Positions 1,573 through 47,562 of a stretch of DNA of 64,000 nt are shown here, piece after piece. Origin of the DNA: Miltoncostaea marina (lineage in GTDB: Bacteria; Actinomycetota; Thermoleophilia; Miltoncostaeales; Miltoncostaeaceae). Position numbers and translations under genes: made by a program. How positions within the stretch are numbered: position 1 is the first letter of the stretch; each line of letters starts with the position of its first letter. The DNA is taken from positions 1,488,001 to 1,552,000 of the forward strand of contig NZ_CP064655.1 of assembly GCF_018141525.1 (NCBI RefSeq), given 5' to 3'. The notes beneath the pieces were generated by a model that saw only the letters and a list, made by a program, of their open reading frames with translations, searched no databases and had not been told where the DNA came from.

Positions 1573-1578
1573 CGCCTC

Positions 1579-1679
1579 CGCATCAAGAGCGGTGGAGGGA
1601 CTGGCCCTGTGAAGCCGCGGCAACCAGCGCGATACGCGCCAGGTGCCAATTCCATCAGGCGGATCGCCTGGGAGATGCG
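1579..1679 (+). promoter_or_regulatory. SAM-I (S-box) riboswitch aptamer
   Basis: The conserved S-box blocks are present in order: ATCAAGAG followed by GGTGGAGGGACTGGCCC, then GTGAAGCC, GGCAACC, GGTGCCAATTCC, and a closing GAGATGCG. P1 forms from CGCATC (1579-1584) and GATGCG (1674-1679). SAM-I riboswitches bind S-adenosylmethionine and usually switch off methionine/cysteine genes when SAM is high. Here the regulated genes are a threonine-synthase-like enzyme and a ThiS/MoaD-like carrier, which points to sulfur or methionine metabolism rather than plain threonine synthesis. Confidence 0.95.
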
Positions 1680-1710
1680 AGCGTCCGACCGGTGCACCGC
1701 CCGTCGCCCT

Positions 1711-41981: not shown

Positions 41982-42467
41982 GTGCGCGTGGTGCTGCAGC
42001 GGGTGCGGTGGGCCCGGGTGGAGGTCGGCGGGGAGGAGGTCGGGGCGATCGGCGCCGGCCTGCTCGCGCTGGTCGGGGTGGCGGAGGGCGACGGGCCGGA
42101 CGACGCCCGCCGGCTCGCCGCCAAGACGGTGCGGCTGCGGCTGTTCGGCGACGGCGACCGGCCCTTCGACCGCGCCCTCGCCGACCTCCCCGGGGGCGCG
42201 CTGCTGTGCGTGAGCCAGTTCACGCTGCTGGGCGACGTGCGCCGCGGCAACCGCCCGTCGTGGTCGCGCGCCGCCGCCCCGGAGGTGGCGGCGCCGCTGG
42301 TGGAGGCGTACGCCGCCGCGGTCGCCGGCCACGGCGTGCCGGTGGCGCGCGGCCGCTTCGGGGCGGCGATGGCGGTGAGCCTGGAGAACGACGGCCCGGT
42401 CACGCTGGTGCTCGACAGCGCCGGGCTCGCGGCGCCCCGGCGGGCCGCTCCGGGGCCCGCCGCGTAG
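41982..42467 (+). CDS. dtd: D-aminoacyl-tRNA deacylase
   Basis: 161 aa from GTG at 41982. The DTD signatures are present: LQRVRWARV near the N-terminus, SQFTLLGD (about 82-89) and NDGPVT (about 138-143, with the usual GP cis-dipeptide). It removes D-amino acids from mischarged tRNAs. It is expressed from its own leaderless-type promoter and lies just before the rimP leader. Confidence 0.95.
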   Translation: MRVVLQRVRWARVEVGGEEVGAIGAGLLALVGVAEGDGPDDARRLAAKTVRLRLFGDGDRPFDRALADLPGGALLCVSQFTLLGDVRRGNRPSWSRAAAPEVAAPLVEAYAAAVAGHGVPVARGRFGAAMAVSLENDGPVTLVLDSAGLAAPRRAAPGPAA

Positions 42468-42490
42468 CGCTCCCGCGCCGTCCGGAGTGC

Positions 42491-42496
42491 TATCGT
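42491..42496 (+). promoter_or_regulatory. Candidate -10 TATCGT of the rimP-nusA-infB operon
   Basis: TATCGT about 95 nt before the rimP start. Transcription would begin near 42502-42504, placing the leader ORF and terminator inside the mRNA. No strong -35 is visible. Confidence 0.5.
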
Positions 42497-42518
42497 CATG
42501 TGCTCCGCGAGGGATTCT

Positions 42519-42545
42519 GTGACGGTGGCGACGGGAGGTGGGTGA
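42519..42545 (+). CDS. Possible 8-codon leader ORF overlapping the rimP leader terminator
   Basis: GTG at 42519 with GAGG at 42509-42512 (6 nt spacing) encodes VTVATGGG and stops at TGA 42543-42545, whose first base closes the left arm of the terminator hairpin and whose remainder is in its loop. A ribosome finishing this ORF would cover the left arm (42536-42543) and prevent the hairpin. Confidence 0.4.
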   Translation: MTVATGGG

Positions 42546-42561
42546 CGAACCCACCTTTTTT
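42536..42561 (+). terminator. Intrinsic terminator in the rimP leader
   Basis: AGGTGGGT (42536-42543) pairs perfectly with ACCCACCT (42549-42556) across a 5-nt loop and is followed by six Ts (42556-42561). It is the only textbook T-tract terminator I see in the window, and it lies between the promoter and rimP rather than at an operon end. Confidence 0.85.
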
Positions 42562-42590
42562 GTGCGCGACGTGGTCGAGGGAGGCGCATC

Positions 42591-43031
42591 GTGAAGGCGG
42601 GCGACATCGAGCGACGGGTGGAGGCGGCGCTGGCCGACGCCATGCCCGCGGTCGACCTGCTCGACTTCACCGTGCTGCCCGCGCAGGGCGGGATGATGCG
42701 CCTGGTCGTGGACCATCCCGACGGCGTCGACCACGACCTGTGCGCGGCGGTGACGGCGGCGCTCGACGACGCGGGGCTGCTCGAGGACTACGGCGCCGAG
42801 GTCTGGTCGCCGGGCCCCGAGCCGCCGCTGCGCCGGCCGGAGCACTTCCGGCGCGCGGTGGGCCGGCGGGTGCGCGTGCGCGCCGAGATCGACGGCGACG
42901 CCCGCACGGTCACGGGGACCCTGGTGGACGCGGGCGAGCAGGCGGTCCGCGTGCGCGCCGCCGAGGGGGAGGTGGAGATCCCGCTGGACCGGGTTCGCCG
43001 CGCCAACGCGCTCGAGGAGGCGGAGGCGTGA
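42591..43031 (+). CDS. rimP: Ribosome maturation factor RimP
   Basis: 146 aa from GTG at 42591 with GGGAGG 42579-42584. The N-terminal MRLVVDHPDGVDHDLCAAVTAALDD block and the EVWSPGPEPPLRRPEHFRRAVGRRVRV block match RimP (long arm with the SPG turn). It helps assemble the 30S subunit. Head of the nusA-infB operon behind the leader terminator. Confidence 0.93.
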   Translation: MKAGDIERRVEAALADAMPAVDLLDFTVLPAQGGMMRLVVDHPDGVDHDLCAAVTAALDDAGLLEDYGAEVWSPGPEPPLRRPEHFRRAVGRRVRVRAEIDGDARTVTGTLVDAGEQAVRVRAAEGEVEIPLDRVRRANALEEAEA

Positions 43032-43110: not shown

Positions 43111-44478
<1,368 letters not shown>

Positions 44479-44503: not shown

Positions 44504-44761
44504 GTGCCGGAGCGCCGCTGCCTCGGCTGCGGGCTCCGGACGGCGAAGGCGTCGCTGGCCCGGTTCGCGGCCGTCCCCGACGGGACGGCCCATCGCCTGG
44601 TCCGCGACGACCGCGCGCGGCTCGGCGGCCGCGGGCTCTACACGTGCCCGAGCCGCGAGTGCTTCACCCGGGCGGCCGAGCGGCGCGCGTTCGGGCGGGG
44701 GGCGCGGATCCGCGGTGAGCTGAGGATCGATCCGGAGCTGGGCGCCGAGTTCGGCAGGTAG
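44504..44761 (+). CDS. ylxR: YlxR-family nucleic-acid-binding protein
   Basis: 85 aa from GTG at 44504, or 92 aa from CTG at 44483, which has a better placed AGGGGG. It starts PERRCLGCGLR, continues with GRGLYTCPSRECF and ends with an AAERRAFGRGAR helix: the DUF448/YlxR fold normally found between nusA and infB. Members bind RNA and have been linked to RNase P modulation and gene regulation. Confidence 0.9.
   Translation: MPERRCLGCGLRTAKASLARFAAVPDGTAHRLVRDDRARLGGRGLYTCPSRECFTRAAERRAFGRGARIRGELRIDPELGAEFGR

Positions 44762-44781: not shown

Positions 44782-47562
<2,781 letters not shown>

Follow-up and report, generated by a model that had tools for sequence, protein, structure and literature searches.

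The rimP leader, a terminator that stands before rimP-nusA-infB, has a GGGc...gCCC stem and lacks an antiterminator, has been described as more ubiquitous than any other transcription attenuator (Naville and Gautheret 2010, PMC2965389). NusA was proposed as its regulator, with older evidence of repression of the operon by NusA in E. coli, and feedback by RimP was likewise considered; very few terminators were predicted in the Actinobacteria (PMC2965389). In Bacillus subtilis, NusA stimulates intrinsic termination within the 5' leader and so controls entry into the operon, as described in the part of a 2025 review (PMC12288461) that cites Mondal et al. 2016. NusA-dependent terminators tend toward interruptions in the distal U tract (PMC8060035).

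Judged by its sequence, an element found in the window (the whole stretch of DNA analysed, 64 kb) is a member of this known rimP-leader kind and agrees with the published motif in all of the features tested. It has the same operon, a hairpin with a G-rich 5' arm and a C-rich 3' arm, a stretch of Ts, no antiterminator, and proximity to the gene start. The rimP start lies 34 nt downstream of the terminator element, which fits the published spacing of 4-130 nt, and the leader, like those described, has no larger conserved element. The GGG/CCC core is present, but the fourth pair is U-A (GGGU...ACCC) in the window and not the C-G pair of the published core, which is found in other leaders.

The hairpin and the operon that follows

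Features of the locus are collected in Table 1. The arms of the hairpin, AGGTGGGT (42536-42543) and ACCCACCT (42549-42556), are 100% complementary and the T tract reads TTTTTTGTG; the perfect 8-bp hairpin and six Ts before rimP of the original prediction were recovered from the sequence. A G-U extension of the stem could absorb part of the T tract. The window has a GC content of 77%, and on both strands of the 64 kb this was the one site where a T tract follows a perfect stem of 7 bp or longer (mean of 0.17 in dinucleotide-shuffled windows), in agreement with the earlier claim that it was the only textbook terminator present. A looser terminator scan of the 2.5 kb around the hairpin listed one further, weaker site. 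A chance hairpin was ruled out by the single occurrence in the window and by conservation relative to shuffles (see below). Pfam domains downstream of the hairpin were ordered RimP, NusA, YlxR, IF2, DUF503, RbfA, DHH and TruB, confirming that an operon with ribosome maturation factors, NusA and IF2 follows the leader.

Table 1. Positions of features at the rimP leader and in the adjoining genes, numbered from the first letter of the window.
Feature	Position	Strand	Description and basis
dtd (D-Tyr-tRNA deacylase)	41985..42467	+	Pfam Dtd; upstream gene, outside the element
Extended -10 promoter element, TGCTATCGT	42488..42496	+	Sequence; TGnTAnnnT conserved in class leaders
8-codon ORF GTG...TGA (VTVATGGG)	42519..42545	+	Sequence; not conserved as an ORF outside the genus
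rimP-leader terminator hairpin	42536..42556	+	8-bp perfect stem, GACGA loop, GGG/CCC core; sequence and covariation
T tract	42556..42561	+	Six Ts, G interrupts from 42562; sequence; predicted 3' end of attenuated RNA
rimP	42591..43031	+	Start GTG 42591; Pfam DUF150_C; orthologue precedes nusA in relatives
nusA	43111..44478	+	Start codon near 43111; Pfam NusA_N, S1, KH; matched in 54/61 relatives
ylxR	44504..44761	+	Pfam; between nusA and infB
infB (IF2)	44785..47562	+	Pfam; start codon approximate

Conservation and covariation in relatives

Named relatives of the window's NusA, one of them deposited as Miltoncostaeaceae, placed the genome in the class Thermoleophilia and probably in the family Miltoncostaeaceae. 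NusA was located in 54/61 relatives and in 116/119 genomes across the phylum, and the sequence preceding nusA was then read in these genomes; RimP in the relatives was located by BLAST or with a home-made profile, and terminator-like hairpins were scored in the last ~150 nt before rimP. Conservation of the hairpin in relatives had been named beforehand as a test that could refute the attenuator. A hairpin with a T tract preceded rimP in 46 of the 48 leaders from the class Thermoleophilia (1.6% of shuffles), and the hairpin was found in 28/36 further leaders of the phylum and in 51/54 leaders from named genomes (1.1-1.7% of shuffles across the sets), the opposite-strand control giving 2-4 leaders per set. 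Beyond the Thermoleophilia it was present in most other families of the phylum. Phylum matches that were not of the GTGGG type (L089, L098, L099, L111 and L118) were excluded from later counts. Six phylum families (L097, L098, L106, L111, L115 and L119) had the rimP-nusA pair and no rimP-leader hairpin, so that rimP-leader control is dispensable in some lineages.

The spacing from terminator to rimP start in relatives was 19-141 nt. The share of Ts dropped along the tract from 100% at position 1 to 63% at position 7 (65 leaders), and distal interruptions were common across the class. The motif GTGGGYN{3,6}RCCCACNTTT occurred once in the 3.37 Mb genome, at the rimP leader in the window; the 61 genomes of the relatives set gave 13 matches, at most one per genome, with 12 at rimP leaders and 1 within another coding frame.

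Thirty-two class hairpins were aligned with MAFFT for analysis of covariation. Standard pairs made up 99.3% of stem cells, and pairing fell to 34-64% when the partner was slid along the alignment as a control. The proposed check for compensatory changes in related genomes came out in favor of the hairpin, with both-sided changes in 32 stem cells vs 7.8 in shuffles. Outer stem pairs alternated between A-U and G-C and the pairs flanking the core between U-A and C-G, and the three G-C pairs of the GGG/CCC core were unchanged in 32/32 hairpins. A wider core-anchored set (80 class leaders and 40 others), which was fitted to the structure, agreed, core changes being rare and compensated. In one class family (L046, L047, L052, L040 and L041) the first core G-C has become C-G (GTCGG/CCGAC, GCCGG/CCGGC), a natural compensatory change.

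From this conservation, attenuation at the hairpin is very probably a conserved function. The strong conservation of sequence within the stem also suggests recognition by a protein, as would be expected if an attenuator of the same kind responded to a sensor other than NusA; the GGG/CCC stem might then be recognised by RimP, YlxR, NusG or a protein of ribosome assembly, and RimP feedback is among the possibilities considered by Naville and Gautheret (PMC2965389). Such a sensor is nevertheless unlikely, NusA autoregulation at the rimP operon having been reported in two distant bacteria.

Promoter, upstream genes and the short reading frame

An extended -10 box upstream of the hairpin (Table 1) was overlooked in the original prediction, and from its position we infer a transcription start near 42503-42504. 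TGnTAnnnT was found 15-70 nt upstream of the hairpin in 65/78 class leaders (1.8 expected). The same box was used to search for a promoter downstream of the hairpin, a finding that would speak against attenuation, and was present between hairpin and rimP in 0/78 class leaders. The distance from inferred start to hairpin was 17-54 nt among class leaders (median 29), and several families had 17-22 nt only.

A CTTTC/ATTTC-like element was also observed ~10-15 nt past the -10 box (e.g. in L158, L160 and L042), mostly in families other than that of the window. TTTC lay between inferred start and hairpin in 29/77 leaders (5 in shuffles), and a CTTTC-like element stood a few bases past the inferred start in 17/77 leaders and was absent from the window's genus. 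It could be a boxA-like site or reflect common ancestry.

In the window, dtd lies on the same strand and ends 68 nt upstream of the hairpin, which would also block read-through from dtd and could be read as its ordinary terminator, insulating the rimP operon. The hairpin, however, remains next to rimP in genomes in which dtd is missing or distant and in those with a divergent upstream gene: a divergent glyoxalase-like gene is found in G002/L011, a divergent signal peptidase in L038 and unrelated genes elsewhere. The extended -10 box falls between upstream gene and hairpin in most leaders (65/78), and a near-invariant GGG/CCC core would not be expected of a plain terminator. Because the upstream genes differ and are sometimes divergent, and the hairpin accompanies rimP rather than dtd, a dtd terminator was rejected as very unlikely.

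The upstream leader paired with the hairpin's left arm hardly better than shuffled sequence did (mean z -0.4; below -2 in 4/65 leaders), and searches of Rfam gave no rimP-type family, whether at the gathering score or with E relaxed to 10. Rfam's rimP family is gammaproteobacterial, the hairpin is very small, and the published rimP-leader motif is not defined by a match to Rfam. With neither a structural signal nor an Rfam match, an antiterminator or riboswitch in the rimP leader was rejected. Elsewhere in the window, a SAM riboswitch (S-box, RF00162, 93 bits) was found at 1577-1681 (+), and a G+C-rich inverted repeat with TTTCGTT near 1710-1740, past the riboswitch, could be its expression platform.

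The original prediction had a ribosome on the 8-codon ORF melting the hairpin, so that the operon would sense translation-initiation capacity. The GTG at 42519, the GAGG before it (42509-42512) and the TGA at 42543-42545 are present as described, and GAGG with RTG stands at the equal position in 3/3 genus members (0.5 expected from shuffles, the congeners not being independent). The stop lies within the hairpin in two of the three congeners, and the spacer of the leader diverges within the genus. The third congener (G002, L011) has ATG ACG GTG GCG where the window has GTG ACG GTG GCG, and its frame crosses the hairpin and joins rimP in frame. In its leader and rimP (L011 2909-3457) no stop interrupts the RimP frame through the hairpin as far as an ATG closely preceded by GAGGG, so that this species may make a RimP with an N-terminal extension.

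Across the class, the hairpin is near universal, but a Shine-Dalgarno-preceded ORF that begins past the inferred transcription start and has its stop codon within the hairpin was found in only 2/77 leaders (0.7 expected; 0.9% of shuffled leaders), both from the window's genus. The short ORF ends expected to be conserved in relatives are therefore at chance level, and a conserved leader peptide was ruled out at the class level. The 17-22 nt from start to hairpin in several families are too short for a Shine-Dalgarno sequence, a start and an ORF, and, once the GTG start region had cleared RNA polymerase, the enzyme would be within ~ten bases of the release point. Since the predicted leaders have 17-54 nt before the hairpin, there would be little room or time for sensing by a ribosome, and translation coupling through the ORF is very unlikely. 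Of the original prediction, an attenuator in the rimP-nusA-infB leader is strongly supported, whereas coupling to the ORF is not supported as its conserved mechanism. Equally doubtful is a reading in which the GAGG and RTG shared by the three species are a translation start gained by this genus alone, through which ribosomes loading on the transcript's first 20 nt would modulate the NusA attenuator or, in one of the species, pass through it into an extended RimP.

Proposed control and comparison with described systems

By analogy with the described systems, the element is probably a rimP-leader attenuator of the rimP-nusA-ylxR-infB operon, in which NusA-stimulated premature termination would act as negative feedback. 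RNA polymerase would start at the extended -10 promoter near 42503; after ~30 nt had been transcribed the conserved hairpin with its GGG/CCC core would fold, and an RNA of ~58 nt could be released near 42561, at the T tract, which is imperfect. How efficiently transcription terminates would most likely be set in trans by NusA, since the leader has no visible sensor domain or antiterminator; this analogy and the absence of any sensor in cis make NusA the likely sensor. Abundant free NusA would then give more termination, and scarce NusA would permit read-through into rimP-nusA-infB. We infer both the actual termination and the role of NusA, and dependence on NusA is not readable from the sequence because the hairpin in the window is perfect and, with a folding energy of -15.8 kcal/mol, fairly stable and not weak. 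Action of NusA on the hairpin, a side remark in the original prediction, is a better reading than translation coupling.

Although GC is very high and intrinsic terminators are scarce, the rimP-leader attenuator is carried throughout the Thermoleophilia and extends into other classes of the phylum. With a promoter, a hairpin and a T tract, the leaders are near the shortest possible form; this restricts the choice of sensor to a trans-acting factor and would make them a clean system for NusA feedback outside Bacillus and E. coli.

Like the trp and his leader-peptide attenuators, the window has a short ORF that precedes and overlaps the hairpin; unlike them, it has no conserved ORF, regulatory codon run or antiterminator. 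In the E. coli metY-rimP-nusA-infB operon (PMC6511841), terminators t1/t2 precede rimP and the operon is repressed by NusA. The placement of the terminator is shared, whereas the tRNA gene, several promoters and RNase III sites of the E. coli leader were not seen in the window leader, nor was the second upstream terminator with antiterminator of several Gammaproteobacteria. The proposed model is of the same kind as the NusA-stimulated leader termination of B. subtilis, the leader there being ~180 nt (PMC2965389) vs ~58 nt to the release point in the window. NusA-dependent terminators typically show an imperfect distal U tract, a weak hairpin or both; distal interruptions of the T tract are common in the class, yet the window hairpin is stable. 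Relative to the published survey (PMC2965389), the present comparison documents the element, with a promoter close by on its upstream side, across the Thermoleophilia and in further classes of the phylum.
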